Positions 49,256-60,893 of a DNA stretch of 64,000 bases are shown here, one piece after another. Origin of the DNA: Dehalococcoidia bacterium (lineage in GTDB: Bacteria; Chloroflexota; Dehalococcoidia; Tepidiformales; Tepidiformaceae); assembly GCA_020432045.1 (NCBI GenBank), contig JAGQHB010000056.1, positions 1 through 64,000 on the forward strand. Reading direction: 5' to 3'. Position 1 is the first letter of the stretch. Every line of letters starts with the position of its first letter. Both the position numbers and the translations under genes were made by a program. A model generated the notes under the pieces. It did no database searches and was not told the origin of the DNA. It was given only the letters and a program-made list of their open reading frames with translations.

Positions 49256-49399
49256 TCAGTCCGCGGACGGAAGGACCTTGGGCTGCATAAGCTCCATGTC
49301 CTTGTTGTTTACCTTCAATTCGCAGGCCCCGGGCTTGATGACGAGCAATTCGATGCCGGTCTCTTCGTCCTTGTAACGTTTTCCCAGTTGTACTGCCAT
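49256..49399 (-). CDS. Small MAVQ-x-GKRY protein, cysteine-poor paralogue (47 aa)
   Basis: A 47-residue protein starting MAVQLGKRYKDEETGIELLV and ending PKVLPSAD. It shares its first residues and overall strand pattern with the neighbouring 39-residue zinc-ribbon-like protein but has only one cysteine, so the metal site is lost. AGGAGGGG lies five bases before the ATG, a strong argument that it is translated. The function is unknown. It is next to the bc operon on the same strand and about 20 bases after the 39-residue gene. Confidence 0.75.
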   Translation of the reverse strand: MAVQLGKRYKDEETGIELLVIKPGACELKVNNKDMELMQPKVLPSAD

Positions 49400-49421: not shown

Positions 49422-49541
49422 CTACTTCTTGAGTTCGAGCGGCGTGCCGCCGCAAGTAATCTCCGCGTCGCCACCCTTGGTGACGATGAATTCAGACCCG
49501 CACTTCGGGCACACGTAACGCTTGCCTGTCTGGACTGCCAT
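49422..49541 (-). CDS. Small desulforedoxin/zinc-ribbon-like protein (39 aa)
   Basis: A 39-residue protein (MAVQTGKRYVCPKCGSEFIV at its start, then ITCGG and a lysine-rich end). The CPKC pair and a later TCGG give three of the four cysteines of a desulforedoxin-like metal site; the fourth position is glycine. GAGGAGGGG lies four bases before the ATG. It is too short for routine gene callers. It sits downstream of the cytochrome c-LysM-cupredoxin gene and upstream of its cysteine-poor paralogue. A metal-binding or redox-related role is inference. Confidence 0.75.
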   Translation of the reverse strand: MAVQTGKRYVCPKCGSEFIVTKGGDAEITCGGTPLELKK

Positions 49542-49694: not shown

Positions 49695-51296
49695 CTACTC
49701 GACGTACACCCAGGCGAGCATGTCGGGGTGGAAGTCACACGTGATTTTGAACTCACCCGCTTCGTTGAAAGTCCATTCAAACGTCACGCCTGCTTGCGGG
49801 CCAAACTCTGCCACCTCGGTGACCCCGTTGATCGTGATGGTGTGGAAGCCCGCGAGATTCTCGAATAGAATTTTTGCATCCTTCGCGATCTTGACGATGC
49901 CCTTGTTCTGATCTGACGTCGCACCGTCCGCGACGACGGTCCAGTCGTTGGCTCCAGAGGTGATCTTGACGTCCTCCGAGATCTCGCTAGGAATCTCGGG
50001 TGCACCACCGCCGCCGAAGATCGTCTCGAAGGCGCCAGCCGTGACGGCATGTTCAACACAGGCGGTCCCCGGATTAGTGGCGTCGGGAGGGGTGGAGCCG
50101 TACGCCTCCGGTGGCGTGTGCAGAGTGGTACCAACGGCATAGATATGGTCGCCGGCGACGGGGGGGGTTTGTGCTTCGGCAAGCTGATCAAGCGAGACGC
50201 CGCCGAGCGTCCGCCGAATATCGTCCAGCGTCTGACCCTGGACGATATAGCCGGCACCTTCGGGCAGCGCAAAGACCAGCCTTTCGCCTTCGGGGATCGC
50301 GATCTCCGCAGCGATATCGTTAGAAGTCAGAAGGGCGCGGTTGAGGTTCGCGAGCGGTCCTGTGAGGACATCGTGCAAATCGGCGATGGACTGCACGGTG
50401 TCGCCGTGGCGGACAACGTAGACAGTCCCGGCTGGGAGTTGGAGCCTGGCGCCGGGATAGAGCCCGATACCGGCCTCGCTCAGGTCCGGGTTGGCACCGA
50501 TGGTGAACGTGCCCTTCTTGAAGTTGACGTCATAGGGGATGCGATTGAAATCGGCGAGGATCATGGCTCCGATGAACTGGGAGTCGTTGATCTTCGCGAC
50601 ATTCTCCCGGTCACGCTTGATTTCGTAGACCTGGGCCTTTGCACCGTTCGTTGCCGGGAGGTTTACCCTCGTGCCTTTTTCCAGGAACGCTTCGGGGTCC
50701 GTGATGGACGGGTTGAGCCCAAGGATCTCCCTGATGCCGATGCCATGAGACTGGGCAATGATGCCGAGCGTGTCGCCGCCAACAACGAGAGAGGTCTCCC
50801 CGTTGAGGTTATGGGCAAACTCTACGGTGTGCTCCCAACCTGGGCTGACCAGTTCGCCGTCCGCAGTCTCGATGTCGGCGGGCTGGGTCATCAGGTTCAC
50901 AAGGTGCTCGATCTGGCGGACATTGAGTGAGCCGCCGTTTGTATCGAGCCAGGCGGGCATGAGGGTGCCGGCGCGCCCGCAATAGAGCGTACGTGTGAGC
51001 AGCGCCTTGTTCTTGGCCAGGACGAGCGGATCCTGGTCCTGCCAGTTATCCAGGCCTTGCTGCTCGCGAATGCTGCCATTCAGGGCGGGACCAACGAAGC
51101 CTTCGCCACGGAGTCCGTGGCAGGTGCGGCAGTTGTTTGCGTAAAGCAACGCACCACGTTCGATGGAGCCATCGTACTGGTATGTGGCCTGATCTACCGC
51201 CCGAACGGGCAGATCGATGACCGTGTAGGCGGCGCAACCGGCCGTAAGGAAGAACACAAGGGCTACCATGAGCCCGATCTGCTTCTGGGTATTCAA
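49695..51296 (-). CDS. Cytochrome c-LysM-cupredoxin fusion lipoprotein of the bc complex operon
   Basis: A 533-residue exported lipoprotein with an unusual domain order. The signal peptide ends in LTAGC (Cys21 lipidated). Residues about 45-140 form a cytochrome c domain with haem motif CRTCH (56-60) and a Met ligand in LMPAW (113). Residues about 155-395 contain several LysM-like units (GGDTLGIIAQSHGI, VRHGDTVQSIADLH, VQGQTLDDIRRTL). Residues about 440-533 are a cupredoxin with type-1 copper ligands His485, Cys520, His523 and Met526 (FHTITI, CDFHPDM). It probably accepts electrons from Rieske and passes them from haem to copper at the cell surface. TTG start with GGGGAGGGG upstream. Confidence 0.88.
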   Translation of the reverse strand: MNTQKQIGLMVALVFFLTAGCAAYTVIDLPVRAVDQATYQYDGSIERGALLYANNCRTCHGLRGEGFVGPALNGSIREQQGLDNWQDQDPLVLAKNKALLTRTLYCGRAGTLMPAWLDTNGGSLNVRQIEHLVNLMTQPADIETADGELVSPGWEHTVEFAHNLNGETSLVVGGDTLGIIAQSHGIGIREILGLNPSITDPEAFLEKGTRVNLPATNGAKAQVYEIKRDRENVAKINDSQFIGAMILADFNRIPYDVNFKKGTFTIGANPDLSEAGIGLYPGARLQLPAGTVYVVRHGDTVQSIADLHDVLTGPLANLNRALLTSNDIAAEIAIPEGERLVFALPEGAGYIVQGQTLDDIRRTLGGVSLDQLAEAQTPPVAGDHIYAVGTTLHTPPEAYGSTPPDATNPGTACVEHAVTAGAFETIFGGGGAPEIPSEISEDVKITSGANDWTVVADGATSDQNKGIVKIAKDAKILFENLAGFHTITINGVTEVAEFGPQAGVTFEWTFNEAGEFKITCDFHPDMLAWVYVE

Positions 51297-51314: not shown

Positions 51315-51932
51315 TCAGGCGTTGTAAGAAACCGCGCGGAGCGGGTTATCGGTGTTTCCGAACGTGATACGTCCGGTGTTTACGCCAAGCGACCCGTCGG
51401 TGTTGATGGCGATATCCATCGTGTCGAGCGGACGCGGGGCCGGGCCAAAGACGCGGATACCGGCCTTCGAATACGTAGATCCATGGCATGGACAGCGGAA
51501 CCAGCCAACGACCCCGGGGAAGTTGACAGCGGCACCGTTGAAGGCTGCATTCCAGGGGACTGAGCAACCGAGGTGCGGGCACTTCCAATAGAGAGCCAAT
51601 AGGCCTCCCGTGCCGCCGACACCAAGGACATCTCCCTCGGCGCCCTGCAAGTTCACGAGCCAGAACTTACCGGCGGAGACACGGACCGGGTCCGTGCCAG
51701 CCGACGGGATCTGGTTGGCGGCTACATTGACGACGCCGCCGAATCCCCGTGGATGACGGAGGTTGAAGAAGCCGAGGAAGCTGGCGAGCATCGCTCCGAC
51801 GAAGAGGGAGAGTCCGGCGAACGTGCTCACGCGGAGGAACGAGCGCCGCGCGATCTTACGAGCTTCGCGCTGGCGGGCTTGTTCGACACGCGGAGCGTTC
51901 CGGGCCGGGCCGACGGTGTCCATCTGTGCCAT
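51315..51932 (-). CDS. Rieske iron-sulfur protein of the cytochrome bc complex
   Basis: A 205-residue Rieske subunit. A basic N-terminus (RQREARKIARRSFLRV, twin-arginine-like) leads into one transmembrane helix (about residues 36-53). The extracytoplasmic [2Fe-2S] domain has CPHLGC and CPCHGS, the two cysteine-histidine ligand pairs and disulfide cysteines. It oxidises quinol at the Qo site and reduces cytochrome c. The ATG overlaps the stop of the subunit IV gene by one base (TAATG), and the cytochrome c-cupredoxin gene follows 18 bases later. Confidence 0.95.
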   Translation of the reverse strand: MAQMDTVGPARNAPRVEQARQREARKIARRSFLRVSTFAGLSLFVGAMLASFLGFFNLRHPRGFGGVVNVAANQIPSAGTDPVRVSAGKFWLVNLQGAEGDVLGVGGTGGLLALYWKCPHLGCSVPWNAAFNGAAVNFPGVVGWFRCPCHGSTYSKAGIRVFGPAPRPLDTMDIAINTDGSLGVNTGRITFGNTDNPLRAVSYNA

Positions 51933-52822
51933 TAGTGGGCCTCCTGACCCGGAATACCTTCACTGACCTTGAGTTCCCACGGGAAGACGAGCTCCTGACC
52001 CTGCCCGCGGAAGGCAGTGCCGGCGAGCGTGAGGACGCCATAGGCGCCGATGAAGCCGCTGAAGAGGGCGAGGAGGGCGTCGCGTCGCGTCTGGACCCAG
52101 CCGAGGCGCCACATCGCATAAATCATGATCGTGGGGAGGGCGACCATCGCCAGCATCGGGATGGCAATCTCAACAATGAACCCAGGGAAATCGATGTGCT
52201 GGAATTCGGTTGGGCCGCCGGGTGCGTCGCTGGCGAGAATCTTCAGGTTGAAGGGCAGGTAGGGAATATCCGATGCCCAGTCGGGCCACTGAACCTGGCT
52301 CTGGAAAGAGCGGACGTTTTCGAGGAACCGGAGGCGGTCACCACCGGAAAGACCGAACCAGTCGTTCAGGAAGAAGGCGATCTTGCCCGAGTCCCAGAGG
52401 ATGAGGGCCCAAGTGCCGACGATACCGATGACGCCGGCGACGACCGTGATCTTGACCGAGTTTTCGGTAGCGAAGTAGGCACCCTGGCCGTCATTGTCGC
52501 GGTCGAAGTATGGGAATGCTCCCATGATGACCAGCCAGATGGTGGGGATAATGACGCCGGCCATTGCGGCGTTCATGTGGAGCAGCAGTTCCTGCAGGTT
52601 GAGCAGGTACCACGGCGCCTTGGACGGGTTGGGTGTGACATCCGCATTGGCCTGGTCGAGCAGGGGAGCGTTCATGACTGACGCCAGTGCGAACAGGGTG
52701 ATGGTAAAGACGAGTGCGGCGATGAACTCGATAAAGACGAGATCGGGCCAGACGAGGACTTCTTCGTCGCGGGCGCGAGCCTGTGGCCGCGCAACGGGCC
52801 GAGCTACTACAGCGGTTGCCAT
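51932..52822 (-). CDS. Cytochrome b C-terminal part / subunit IV-like protein
   Basis: A 296-residue membrane protein corresponding to the C-terminal half of cytochrome b (b6f subunit IV). Seen: PDLVFIEFIAALVFT, then NPSKAPWYLLNLQELLLHMN, which is the quinol-site loop typical of menaquinol bc complexes. Three main helices and an additional pair near the C-terminus follow. A soluble insertion (about residues 150-205) lies between helices. It is encoded 27 bases after cytochrome b, with a one-base overlap to Rieske. The split arrangement is b6f-like. Confidence 0.9.
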   Translation of the reverse strand: MATAVVARPVARPQARARDEEVLVWPDLVFIEFIAALVFTITLFALASVMNAPLLDQANADVTPNPSKAPWYLLNLQELLLHMNAAMAGVIIPTIWLVIMGAFPYFDRDNDGQGAYFATENSVKITVVAGVIGIVGTWALILWDSGKIAFFLNDWFGLSGGDRLRFLENVRSFQSQVQWPDWASDIPYLPFNLKILASDAPGGPTEFQHIDFPGFIVEIAIPMLAMVALPTIMIYAMWRLGWVQTRRDALLALFSGFIGAYGVLTLAGTAFRGQGQELVFPWELKVSEGIPGQEAH

Positions 52823-52849: not shown

Positions 52850-53602
52850 CTAAAGCGGCCGGGCGAGGCCGCCGTCACGGCGGATACGCCAGAAATGCAC
52901 GGCCATGAAGATCGCGGCAAGCAGCGGAAGGCCGATCACGTGCAGCGTATAGAAGCGGATGAGTGCATCGGGGCCTACCTGGAGACCGCCGAGGAGCCAG
53001 AAGCGGCTCTTGGGGCCAAGGACTGGGGCGGAGCCGGCGATATTGGTGCCGACGGTGATGGCCCAGAACGCGAGCTGGTCCCAGGGGAGCAGGTAGCCAG
53101 TGAAGCTGAGGAGGAAGGTGAGGACCAGGAGGACGACACCCACGACCCAGTTGAATTCACGCGGCGGCTTGTAGGCGCCGGTGTAGAAGACTCGCATCAT
53201 ATGCAAGAAGACGAGGATGACCATCGCATGGGCCATCCAACGATGCAGGTTTCGCATGAGCTGACCAAATTGGACGTTGGTCTGGATGTTCTGGATGTCC
53301 AGGTAAGCCCGGTCGACGCTGGGCACGTAGTAGAACATGAGGAGGATGCCGGTCACGGTGAGGCCGAGGAACATGAAGAACGAGAGGCCACCGAGGCAGT
53401 AGGTATGGGTAACCTTGACGTGTGTCCGGTGGATACGCGTCGGATGGAGGTGGAGAAAGACGTTCGTCGCAACGACGAGCATCTGGTTTCGAGGGGTGTT
53501 GGGATAACCGGTACGAAAGATCGACTTCCAAACATAGTTATGGAAGAGCTTGTCGTAGATCTTATCCGCGATCGTGGGACTGGCGGGGTGTTCAACGGCC
53601 AT
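52850..53602 (-). CDS. Cytochrome b6-like N-terminal cytochrome b subunit
   Basis: A 250-residue four-helix cytochrome b6-type subunit carrying both b haems. The haem ligands are visible in helix B ([19 protein letters not shown]) and helix D ([20 protein letters not shown]). [13 protein letters not shown] in the cd loop is characteristic. It oxidises menaquinol together with subunit IV and Rieske. ATG at 53602 follows GGAGG by about ten bases. A tiny membrane-peptide gene stops 18 bases upstream, inside the same transcript. Confidence 0.95.
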
Positions 53603-57311: not shown

Positions 57312-58547
57312 ATGCGGACAGAAAGAAGCCGGGAACAGCGTTTTCACAGGCAGACCGGGCGTCGCAGAGTTGCCGGGCACCTGTTTATCGTGGCGCTTGC
57401 GGCGGGCGTCCTGACGTACGTGGCACAGACTCCCGCGAACTCGACATCGGCACAACAGCCAGCAGTCGCACCAGTGTTTTCGGTGACGGGCATCCCTATG
57501 GCCGACGCGAAACAGGCCGGCGCCAAGTACTTCGCCCCCGGCACGAGCGTGCAAACGCGAAATTCGATTGCAGCACTGACAACGGTCGCGGATTCGACGT
57601 CGCTGCGCTCCACGGCGGCCGTTTCGCCTATTTCTTCGTTCTCTTCGGGGGTGGCGCTGGCAGCGGCGGCATTGGGCGAGAGCGGCGCGGGCGTGAAGCC
57701 GCTGGCCGACATCCTCGACCCGCGGGTGCCGTTCGTGCTGTACGAGGCGCAACCGGGCGACACGGTCGGAGCGATTTCCGAGCGTTACGGCATCAGCCTG
57801 CGCACGCTCCTGGAAAACAACCCGACGGTCGAAGACCGGAACCTGCTGCAGCTTGGGCAGCAGCTGATCGTGCCGCGCAAGGACGGGATCCTCTACAAGG
57901 TCGGGCACGGGGAGACGCTGGACTCGATCGTGAACCAGTACGACAACATCACGCTCGGGACGGTGCTGGAGTACAAGCCGAACAACATCGTGAACCCGGA
58001 CGAGTTGAAGCCGGGAGAGTTCGTGCTGCTGCCGGGAGCGACGGTGAAGCCCCCACCTCCGCCGCCACCTCCACCACCGGAGCCGGTCGTGCCAGCAAGC
58101 CCCGCGCAGGGCGGCGGGTCACCGGGGACCGGTGCGGCACCACTGCCGGGCGGGGCAGGACTGTTCTCGATGCCGCTAGCCGGTTACCGGGGGGTCAGCG
58201 ACCGGTTCGGCGTGGACCGCGGTGGTGGGACGTATCACACGGGCATCGACCTTGACCTCGCTGGTTATCCGGCCTCGAACGTGTTCTCAGCGTGTGCGGG
58301 CGTGGTCATCCGTACCGAGTACCTGACCTACAGTTACGGCTACCACGTGGTGGTGGACTGCGGCGGAGGCTGGACGACGTGGTACGCGCACCTGAGCCAG
58401 ATCCTGGTGACTCCGGGGCAGACGGTTTCCGCGGGGACCATCGTGGGGGTATCCGGTGTGACGGGCTTCACGACGGGCGAGCACCTTCACTTCGAAATCC
58501 GCAAGGATGGCGCGCCGGTGAACCCGGCGGATTACCTGCCCTTCTAG
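57312..58547 (+). CDS. LysM- and M23-domain cell-wall peptidase
   Basis: A 411-residue exported protein with an N-terminal membrane or signal helix (about residues 22-40) and a low-complexity region. Two LysM peptidoglycan-binding domains follow (YEAQPGDTVGAISERYGISL, about 145-190, and YKVGHGETLDSIVNQYDNIT, about 198-242). A proline-rich linker with ten consecutive prolines leads to a C-terminal M23 endopeptidase. The zinc site is seen in YHTGIDLD (HxxxD) and GEHLHFEIR (HxH). It probably cuts peptide bridges during wall growth or separation. It lies 73 bases after rho in the same direction. Confidence 0.9.
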   Translation: MRTERSREQRFHRQTGRRRVAGHLFIVALAAGVLTYVAQTPANSTSAQQPAVAPVFSVTGIPMADAKQAGAKYFAPGTSVQTRNSIAALTTVADSTSLRSTAAVSPISSFSSGVALAAAALGESGAGVKPLADILDPRVPFVLYEAQPGDTVGAISERYGISLRTLLENNPTVEDRNLLQLGQQLIVPRKDGILYKVGHGETLDSIVNQYDNITLGTVLEYKPNNIVNPDELKPGEFVLLPGATVKPPPPPPPPPPEPVVPASPAQGGGSPGTGAAPLPGGAGLFSMPLAGYRGVSDRFGVDRGGGTYHTGIDLDLAGYPASNVFSACAGVVIRTEYLTYSYGYHVVVDCGGGWTTWYAHLSQILVTPGQTVSAGTIVGVSGVTGFTTGEHLHFEIRKDGAPVNPADYLPF

Positions 58548-59123: not shown

Positions 59124-60893
59124 TCAGGGTTCGCTCGCGGCGAGGCGCTCGGACGCATCGAAGACATCTGCGAGGATATCGGCGCGAAGGCCGGTATCTG
59201 CGAACTCGGGGCGGTAAAGATCGAGAATTTGATAGGGGAGCAGGCGGACATTCGCGACGCGCTTGTCGAGCAGGATGGACTCGACGAGAAAACCCTGGGT
59301 GTGTTCCGGCGTGTGCACCTGGTCGAAGACGAAGTTCCCCATGGCGTAGGTGACGAAGCTGTCGCCACGCATTTCCACGGCGCCAGCCCAGTGGGCCTGG
59401 TTGCCGAGGACGATATCGGCCCCTGCATCCACGGCTGCGCGAAGGGCCTTGATGCTGCGGGGACTGGGGTCATGCGTGTCTTCGTAACCGCTCTGGACCA
59501 TGACGATGACGACGTCGACCTCCGCGCGCAGTTGACGGATGCGGTCGCTGAAGCGTTCGAGGGAAAGCATTGAAGCAGGCTTGTAGAACGCGGGCTCACG
59601 TGGGAGGGCATCGCGTTCGTCGGCGTAGCTGTCGTCGACTGGCGCTGTGCCGGGGGTGGTTTCGTCAGCGCCGAGATCCTCCGCAGCGACGTCATCGAAG
59701 CCGAGGAGCCCGATGCGGGTGCCGTTGATTTCGACTACCACGGGGGCGAGTGCCTCTTCGAGATTGGAGCCGGCACCAACGTGGCGAATGCCAGCGAGTT
59801 CCAAGAGCTCGATAGTGCGTTCGAGGGCAGCAAGGCCACAGCCGCCGAGGCCACAGTCGGAGATGTGATTGGTGGCCAGGGTAAGCACATCGAACCCGGC
59901 GACAGTCAGCCCTTCGATGACCTTGGGCGGTGAGGTGAGGTTTGTCGTGGGCTCGCAAAGCAAGGGTTCACCAATGTCCTGGATGCTGCCATCAAGTGAG
60001 CCGAGCGCGAGATCGGCACCGGCGAGGAAGCCACCGACCGGACCACGAAATGGCGCCGCCCAGTCGCCGGATTCTTCGATGCGGGCGAGCGTGCAGCGGG
60101 AGAGGAGGATATCGCCGGTTGCGACGATGCGAGTAATGGAAGGGGGCGGCTCAGCGAGGCGAGCGGAGATCAGGTCCGCGGTATCCCTGGCTGCCCGGGT
60201 AGAGCCTGTAACAAGGACGCGGTCAGCAAATGGCCAGGCCGCGAGGTTCGGTGTAAGGAGGGGGTCGACTCCATCGACGGCGAGGACAGGCGTCCCGGGA
60301 CGCACTTCAGAGATTGGAAGCATTGAAACGTAGGGCCCCGCTGCGGAGTCCGCGAAGGCGTTCCTGAGGTCCGCGTAAGTGTCGAAGTTCAGTGCCGGTG
60401 CCGCGGCCGGGAGTAGTTGCGCGATGAGCGGAGCGTCGGACGTGACCGTGACGAACTTCGGGATACCGCCGTATCCGCCGAGGGCGACGAAGGCGATGCG
60501 GCCTGAGACGAGATCGTCCAGTTGCGGGCGAGTGACGGCATAGATACCCGCGCTGAAAGAGACCACCGGGACGAAGGTGCGGACGGTGACCCCGGAACCA
60601 TCGATGGGGTTGGCCTGGAAGATGAGGTCCGGCGTTTTGCCGGGATTGACCGCCTTCAAGCCAAAGTCTTCGAGGCCGGATGGGAGCGTGCCGGTGTAGG
60701 AGAGACCACGGCGAGGCGTAGCAGTCGCTTCGGCCTTTGTAGACGCTGGCCGCGCGACGCCGCTCTCAGCAAAGGAAGTGAGGAACACGCCGAAGGCGAA
60801 GACGAGAGCCGCTCCACAGGCCAGCAGCGATGCCACGAACGCGATTCGCCATGCGAGCTGCCTGCTGAGGCGGCTGTGGTCCATGGCGGCCAT
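59124..60893 (-). CDS. CapA-family (PgsA-type) protein with extra N-terminal binding-protein-like domain
   Basis: A 589-residue membrane-anchored protein: a basic N-terminus, one helix (about residues 15-38), then two extracytoplasmic parts. Residues about 60-270 resemble a phosphate/solute-binding lobe (TRPQLDDLVSGRIAFVALGG) but are not clearly assignable. Residues about 275-570 form the CapA metallophosphatase-like domain: TRIVATGDILLSRC, GSLDGSIQD, VLTLATNHISDCG, IGLLGFDD, VIVMVQSGYED, VLGNQAHWAGAVE and YAMGNFVFDQ. CapA/PgsA proteins act in poly-gamma-glutamate or capsule synthesis. No PgsB or PgsC gene is in the window. ATG 60893 is used; 60884 is possible. Confidence 0.83.
   Translation of the reverse strand: MAAMDHSRLSRQLAWRIAFVASLLACGAALVFAFGVFLTSFAESGVARPASTKAEATATPRRGLSYTGTLPSGLEDFGLKAVNPGKTPDLIFQANPIDGSGVTVRTFVPVVSFSAGIYAVTRPQLDDLVSGRIAFVALGGYGGIPKFVTVTSDAPLIAQLLPAAAPALNFDTYADLRNAFADSAAGPYVSMLPISEVRPGTPVLAVDGVDPLLTPNLAAWPFADRVLVTGSTRAARDTADLISARLAEPPPSITRIVATGDILLSRCTLARIEESGDWAAPFRGPVGGFLAGADLALGSLDGSIQDIGEPLLCEPTTNLTSPPKVIEGLTVAGFDVLTLATNHISDCGLGGCGLAALERTIELLELAGIRHVGAGSNLEEALAPVVVEINGTRIGLLGFDDVAAEDLGADETTPGTAPVDDSYADERDALPREPAFYKPASMLSLERFSDRIRQLRAEVDVVIVMVQSGYEDTHDPSPRSIKALRAAVDAGADIVLGNQAHWAGAVEMRGDSFVTYAMGNFVFDQVHTPEHTQGFLVESILLDKRVANVRLLPYQILDLYRPEFADTGLRADILADVFDASERLAASEP

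Follow-up and report, generated by a model that had tools for sequence, protein, structure and literature searches.

The gene described here occupies positions 49695-51296 on the minus strand of the window, by which we mean the whole 64,000-nucleotide stretch of DNA that was analysed. The source genome is a 115-contig assembly from the Tepidiformaceae (Dehalococcoidia, Chloroflexota), a little-known bacterial family of hot springs and soil. The first-pass annotation of this stretch had proposed the open reading frame while leaving out its strand; the frame exists, and on the evidence of Pfam and of an alignment and profile of its family it encodes a protein of 533 amino acids, in which a membrane anchor is followed by a haem c domain, a body of LysM units and a cupredoxin domain. 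Translation starts at a TTG codon that has a strong ribosome-binding site (GGGGAGG) ahead of it and lies 18 nt downstream of the Rieske gene. The gene is the fourth of four close-packed genes of a bc operon, all on the minus strand. It is preceded by genes for a petB-like cytochrome b, corresponding to the N-terminal half (52850-53602; Pfam Cytochrome_B, 1e-47), a subunit IV-like protein corresponding to the C-terminal half of cytochrome b, which keeps its place in the loci that were checked (51932-52822; Pfam Cytochrom_B_C, 2.2e-4), and a Rieske iron-sulfur protein (51315-51932; Pfam Rieske, 6.6e-7), which also matches the NCBIfam b6f Rieske model at 4e-16, under the cut-off of that model. 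Encoded as it is with cytochrome b and Rieske genes, in the manner of bc/b6f operons, the product is a bc-complex cytochrome, as judged from its operon and its haem domain.

Residues 1-24 (51225-51296, minus strand) form an N-terminal membrane anchor and probable lipoprotein signal, LTAGC, in which Cys21 is invariant among 19 family members. Homologues elsewhere in the class often keep a hydrophobic anchor without the cysteine. Lgt is clear in nine of ten family genomes, and the source assembly has a sub-threshold match only; a lipoprotein nature for the product is plausible. Directly behind the cytochrome gene lies a 39-aa protein with three cysteines (window 49422-49541, minus strand), resembling zinc-ribbon or desulforedoxin proteins (PF06397, 3e-4, below cut-off). 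It may be a fifth gene of the operon, since 9 of the 14 family loci checked for sequence patterns have a near-identical protein just behind the cytochrome gene. A 47-aa protein nearby (window 49256-49399, minus strand) begins with MAVQxGKRY, as the 39-aa protein does, lacks the CPKC motif and has no Pfam match. The neighbourhood of the bc operon also contains an M23 peptidase (window 57312-58547, plus strand), an ordinary wall enzyme in which two LysM stretches occur.

The haem c domain spans residues 45-140 (50877-51164, minus strand). It matches Pfam Cytochrom_C (PF00034) above the cut-off at 1.3e-5, and a profile of 19 family members, compared with the sequences of the PDB, matches CcoP-type cytochrome c at 1e-8. 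The haem attachment motif is CRTCH (51117-51131), with C56, C59 and H60 as its cysteines and histidine, and Met113 in the motif GTLMPAW (50958-50960) is the probable axial haem ligand, so that the domain has both the CxxCH motif and the distal axial methionine of a class I c-type cytochrome. In an alignment of 19 species, C56, R57, C59 and H60 are invariant and T58 varies, and Met113 is conserved in at least 90%. One member, L011 (G015), has leucine at this place (GTLLPAW) and is a natural variant of the haem ligand. AlphaFold, applied to the full protein with no haem and a shallow alignment, models this domain poorly, with pLDDT below 50 in parts, and the assignment of the haem domain is for that reason a sequence-based one.

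Between the two redox domains lies a LysM body, residues 160-400 (50097-50819, minus strand), comprising four beta-alpha-alpha-beta units. Unit 1 (residues 171-214; 50655-50786) is recognised by Pfam LysM at 6e-11. Unit 3 (residues 292-343; 50268-50423) is identified by a match to LYK LysM3 at residues 293-316 and by structural matches over model residues 130-188. The LysM-like units 2 (residues 222-286, with an insertion inside; 50439-50633) and 4 (residues 349-394; 50115-50252) are drawn from the secondary structure of the models. The Pfam LysM model (PF01476) scores 42.6 bits against a cut-off of 20.9 and matches 19 of 19 family members, while the family profile of 19 members finds LysM proteins among PDB sequences at 7e-11. 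Modelled alone, the LysM region has a mean pLDDT of 89.6 and a pTM of 0.85, and because of these values we predict one compact, ordered body and no flexible string. LysM structures are among its best matches: with a structural aligner other than Foldseek most of the top matches are LysM domains, as single units and with moderate Z scores of 5-7. Foldseek itself returned no match for the LysM body under E 0.001, so the LysM assignment is carried by the sequence profiles and the other aligner. The LysM folds expected by the first-pass annotation are thus found in the prediction, and its picture of a strung-out, simple spacer gives way to a predicted compact body.

Residues 441-533 (49698-49976, minus strand) constitute the cupredoxin domain. 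The AlphaFold model of the full protein is confident here (pLDDT blocks of 82-96) and has the Greek-key cupredoxin fold, superposing on plastocyanin 1bxu with a Z score of 11.5 and an rmsd of 1.8 over 82 residues. The family profile finds the cupredoxin domain of CuNIR at 5e-7 and amicyanin at 3e-4. A complete type-1 ligand set of His, Cys, His and Met is formed by H485 (49842-49844) and by C520, H523 and M526 of the copper loop C520-D-F-H523-P-D-M526 (49719-49739), and all four are invariant in the 19 species. The loop has the amicyanin spacing, C-x2-H-x2-M. By Pfam the single sequence lies below the detection threshold of Cupredoxin_1 (E 0.21; 12.1 bits against a cut-off of 27), and 4 of 19 members match at E <0.01. 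As modelled and aligned, the C-terminus has the fold and ligands of a type-1 cupredoxin of plastocyanin/amicyanin-like kind, one that is divergent in sequence by the measure of Pfam. A natural variant of the copper ligands also occurs, in L140 (G006), where the methionine is lost (CDFHPEQDG). The first-pass annotation had given the CRTCH motif and the residue numbers of H485, C520, H523 and M526 correctly, and its central proposal, that a haem c domain, LysM repeats and a type-1 copper domain share one bc-operon chain, is borne out by Pfam, the family profile, AlphaFold (which returned both the LysM folds and the plastocyanin-like copper fold) and the conservation of the ligands.

A chain of this composition could in principle be an artefact, two or three genes having been joined by a frameshift or a misassembly. 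We regard this as scarcely credible. A match to the protein was obtained in 35 of 37 Tepidiformaceae genomes, while the two that lack one are 81% and 72% complete, and internal stops are absent from the main family matches. The full-length protein with an identical domain order was read from 24 of the 35 matched genomes. Its family members include one on a complete chromosome, that of the cultured Tepidiforma flava YIM 72310; the fusion is seen across the whole family, in genomes that stem from independent projects. Furthermore, codon composition is even across the domains (third-position GC of 0.76, 0.75, 0.68 and 0.76). The recurrence across the family, the T. flava genome and the even third-position GC together rule out an artefact of gene fusion or assembly. 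The domain order recurs beside the bc genes across the family in the same operon place, as the first-pass annotation had thought worth looking for.

The LysM body is present in 19 of 19 Tepidiformaceae sampled, against 0 of 26 other members of the class, and longer family members of about 585-650 residues are numerous, most of them with extra LysM-like units in the alignment. That LysM simply tracks peptidoglycan is unsupported: mraY is found in 26 of 26 sampled class genomes, in 25 of them above the model cut-off, and in genomes with and without LysM alike. Cultured Tepidiforma is oxidase-positive and monoderm, with a periplasm of 40 nm, an S-layer and a layer of peptidoglycan about 20 nm thick, and its wall is unusual in that diaminopimelic acid and lysine were undetected (PMC10284905). 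The monoderm lineage with peptidoglycan that the first-pass annotation had presumed is hence already known from culture (PMC10284905). An anchoring of the bc complex to the wall through LysM is plausible. The competing account, which we rate as a real possibility though somewhat short of an even chance, is that the LysM body serves as no more than a rigid spacer or a scaffold for assembly and has lost peptidoglycan binding, leaving the complex unfixed; it would be compatible with a relay of electrons from haem to copper. It gains from the spacers found at that place in other families, which are unrelated and of very different lengths, from the families that possess mraY and do without LysM, from the recognition of only part of the four units by Pfam, and from structural matches that each reach a single LysM unit, with moderate Z scores (5-7). 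The presence of LysM in all 19 members, many with additional units, tells against it, as do the full-length Pfam LysM match of unit 1, above the cut-off, and the peptidoglycan of Tepidiforma (PMC10284905). Binding of the wall by LysM is in any case not needed by every relative, for genomes with mraY and LysM-less cytochromes exist.

Two further cysteines bear on how the chain may be arranged. Cys106 (50979-50981, minus strand) and Cys413 (50058-50060, minus strand) are the sole cysteines that remain after those of the anchor, haem and copper sites are assigned. Both are putative disulfide partners, and both belong, with Cys21, C56, C59, H60, H485, C520, H523 and M526, to the positions invariant across the 19 members. 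In class homologues the second appears as the cysteine of 'CGQ', and it co-occurs with the first: 67 sequences have both C106 and the second cysteine, none has C106 alone, five have neither and one has the later cysteine alone, a tally in which L011, whose haem methionine is leucine, was misread by the cysteine pattern and has both cysteines in the raw alignment. Fisher's test gives 4e-7 for this co-occurrence, a value that is no true probability as the sequences are related. The pattern suggests a C106-C413 disulfide closing the LysM loop. Several single-LysM structures, aligned whole, extend across the range 8-237 of the 241 model residues (for 4uz3, 47 of 47 residues with an rmsd of 1.3), a range that records the first and last aligned residue only. 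Residues near both ends of the LysM body thus appear to join in one LysM-like unit. On the strength of these end-to-end alignments and the conserved cysteine pair, the models suggest a loop with its two ends in contact, an arrangement that would hold the haem and copper modules near each other.

Relatives were sought with the anchor and haem part as query in 343 Dehalococcoidia genomes, of which 141 had a match, and 40 regions were fetched. The order petB, subunit IV, Rieske, cytochrome is kept in the family and class loci that are long enough. The joining of haem c and cupredoxin in one chain, in which the first-pass annotation saw carriers that are normally separate, is real and is not peculiar to this gene, for it recurs in bc operons of Dehalococcoidia and of other Chloroflexota; by sequence comparison, what sets the Tepidiformaceae apart is the LysM part alone. 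The C-terminal parts vary across the class and include, among other modules, cupredoxins with a loop of the C-x2-H-P type. Tandem cupredoxins follow a single haem in L035:7549-8844 and L116:5258-6532, a cupredoxin with a CNxPxHYxxGM loop occurs in families f2 and f66 (the Pfam sulfocyanin SoxE model matches five of the members scanned), a second haem is present in the bc cytochromes L108, L109, L139 and L115, and the C-terminal module is absent from other f21 members. The spacer likewise varies by family, with a different repeat in f34, f59 and f66. A spacer repeat of approximately LRIGDELVRVT..LTVERG.GT.A.H..G was seen in L119, L120, L125, L127-L129, L134, L141, L144 and L145, and in the one member scanned it carries no Pfam name. 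In 27 of 28 loci from other classes of Chloroflexota the cytochrome is adjoined by a Rieske gene. Those cytochromes mostly have two or three haems and several have cupredoxins, some of the latter with one cysteine close to the haem loop and another ahead of the cupredoxin.

The Tepidiformaceae also possess a free lipoprotein cupredoxin (L045:4017-4484, minus strand; homologues L186-L205), strongly conserved and with a complete type-1 site in 21 of 21 fetched family genomes. A tree of 69 cupredoxin domains, unrooted, built on 108 columns and with free cupredoxins from the Tepidiformaceae only, sets the family's 25 fused and 21 free domains apart from the 23 fused ones that represent other families, with branch support of 100/99. 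The closest relative of the fused copper domain is the family's own free lipoprotein cupredoxin. Because the fused domains group with these free proteins and apart from other fused domains, the simplest reading of the tree suggests that the Tepidiformaceae copper module was acquired separately, from its own free cupredoxin or as the source of it. Inheritance of the cupredoxin along with a class-wide fusion is unsupported by this tree of 108 columns, unrooted, which joins the fused and free domains of the family.

The copper domain might serve not in electron transfer but in copper handling, for example in the supply of CuA or NosZ sites, and the source genome does contain a locus resembling NosZ and, next to its cox genes, a membrane gene of cupredoxin-like character. 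The ligands and loop are of the amicyanin/plastocyanin type, with an axial methionine that is invariant in the aligned set, the top fold matches are electron carriers, and the place of the gene in a quinol-oxidase operon is fixed; all of this makes a role in copper handling very improbable. The small membrane protein that adjoins the oxidase genes (L087:5802-6350, minus strand) has a cupredoxin-like CxxH stretch and no Pfam match.

The respiratory complement of the family was surveyed in ten genomes, each of which has exactly one cytochrome b and one ResB, the c-haem assembly protein (in two pieces in G013). Oxidase subunit I is present at least once in all the family genomes searched, and CuA-type matches number one to three per genome in the ten examined, some lying in frames of NosZ size. 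The idea that alternative complex III is the main quinol oxidase was rejected, matches to NrfD, its membrane subunit family, being absent from 7 of the 10 genomes, the source genome included. Two Pfam models, which can miss divergent cytochromes, find one c-type cytochrome, or at most two, in each of the ten; in G011 and G013 the bc cytochrome subunit is the sole one found with these models. The source genome has as its second a membrane protein resembling CopD, identified by eye, whose cytochrome domain is C-terminal. No free cytochrome c is evident with the two models in the family genomes examined. Greedy calling of the longest open reading frame gave wrong frames in these GC-rich loci, and only proteins recognised by motif were used. 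The main oxidase operon of the source genome encodes a subunit II with CuA ligands and without a fused cytochrome c. A possible second acceptor in the same genome is encoded by a gene of NosZ size that includes a CuA-type domain (L105; G000:C104, about 59700-59900).

An on-path relay from haem to copper is most likely the best explanation of the chain. The relay would run to CuA in the manner of QcrC, with blue copper in the place of its second haem domain. Electrons from menaquinol would pass to the Rieske protein and on to haem c, then to the type-1 copper inside the same chain, and from the copper to CuA of an aa3-type oxidase, possibly also to that of NosZ, with or without the free lipoprotein cupredoxin as an intermediate. 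Between the haem and copper domains the LysM body would act as a rigid module, the C106-C413 disulfide would probably close its loop and hold the copper domain near the haem, and the body may touch peptidoglycan and so set the position of the complex under the S-layer. We consider it rather probable, on this analysis, that the cell's sole bc complex has this protein as its cytochrome subunit, with the tethered copper as a built-in second carrier to CuA and with a LysM body clamped by C106-C413.

The main rival of this tethered relay is a shuttle: the free lipoprotein cupredoxin would be the principal carrier from the haem domain to CuA, and the fused cupredoxin would serve as a docking mimic, as a side branch or in reserve. 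The high conservation and complete type-1 site of all 21 fetched free proteins, and their position as nearest relatives of the fused domain, speak for such a shuttle, and auracyanins have been proposed in a role of this kind beside alternative complex III in Chloroflexus (PMC3150298). However, the fused domain has its four copper ligands in 19 of 19 species, which a mere dock would not need, and related bc operons repeatedly encode a second carrier on a tether, so that we judge the free shuttle unlikely. The tethered relay also admits a bolder and more doubtful extension, in which the Tepidiformaceae complex III would be bolted to the wall by a disulfide-closed LysM loop on peptidoglycan, with copper beside haem and an outlet free of shuttles, and in which the bc complexes of Chloroflexota would have a plug-in site that has seen several exchanges between haem c and unrelated blue-copper modules.

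Textbook respiratory chains employ a free or separately anchored carrier from complex III to the oxidase. Many Chloroflexota lineages seem instead to carry a second carrier inside the bc cytochrome, a haem in some and various blue-copper domains in others, so that close relatives offer a direct comparison of how far haem and copper carriers are interchangeable. In the Tepidiformaceae the respiratory complex has cell-wall-binding folds as well, and thermophilic strains in which peptidoglycan has been demonstrated are in culture and suitable for study. A bc-complex subunit combining haem c and cupredoxin was not found described in the open-access literature; nor, in the same literature, preprints being outside its scope, was LysM in a subunit of a respiratory complex or together with cytochrome c and plastocyanin.

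The nearest functional parallel is QcrC, the dihaem cytochrome cc of actinobacterial bcc-aa3 (PMC4505504), likewise a membrane-anchored bc cytochrome with two redox modules per chain. In mycobacterial QcrC one c domain is proposed to accept electrons from the Rieske protein and the other to feed the oxidase, soluble cytochrome c being absent (PMC4505504). In the Tepidiformaceae genome, likewise, no free cytochrome c was found. The second module of the Tepidiformaceae subunit is blue copper whereas that of QcrC is haem, its anchor is N-terminal rather than C-terminal, a LysM body lies in between, and its gene is the last of the operon. The protein is not itself a QcrC, having one CxxCH only and scoring 27 bits against a cut-off of 200 with NCBIfam NF050122. 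The Chloroflexota bc-operon cytochromes L035, L037, L106, L129 and L177 have a homologous anchor and haem domain, Rieske directly upstream and a C-terminal cupredoxin, and those of Dehalococcoidia have the cysteine pair of the Tepidiformaceae protein. The other Chloroflexota bc cytochromes differ in lacking LysM, in having other spacers, tandem cupredoxins, SoxE-like loops or second haems, and in a cupredoxin that comes from another branch. Subunit II of caa3-type oxidases is another single respiratory subunit that has haem c together with a copper site of cupredoxin fold, and 2yev was among the fold matches; its copper site is binuclear CuA, its domain order is opposite and it belongs to the oxidase, whereas the Tepidiformaceae protein has a type-1 copper site and belongs to complex III. 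Auracyanin, plastocyanin and amicyanin have the cupredoxin fold and the His-Cys-His-Met type-1 site in common with the Tepidiformaceae domain; they are separate proteins, auracyanin B being membrane-tethered (PMC3150298), whereas the Tepidiformaceae domain is part of a bc cytochrome. Finally, haem c and cupredoxin-type modules share one chain in the cytochrome c/cupredoxin/nitrite reductase fusions of Chloroflexi (PMC8756737), a paper in which the term LysM is absent, and in cytochrome c-tethered CuNIRs (PMC13324648). Both of these are nitrite reductases, whereas the Tepidiformaceae protein is a probable subunit of the bc complex.
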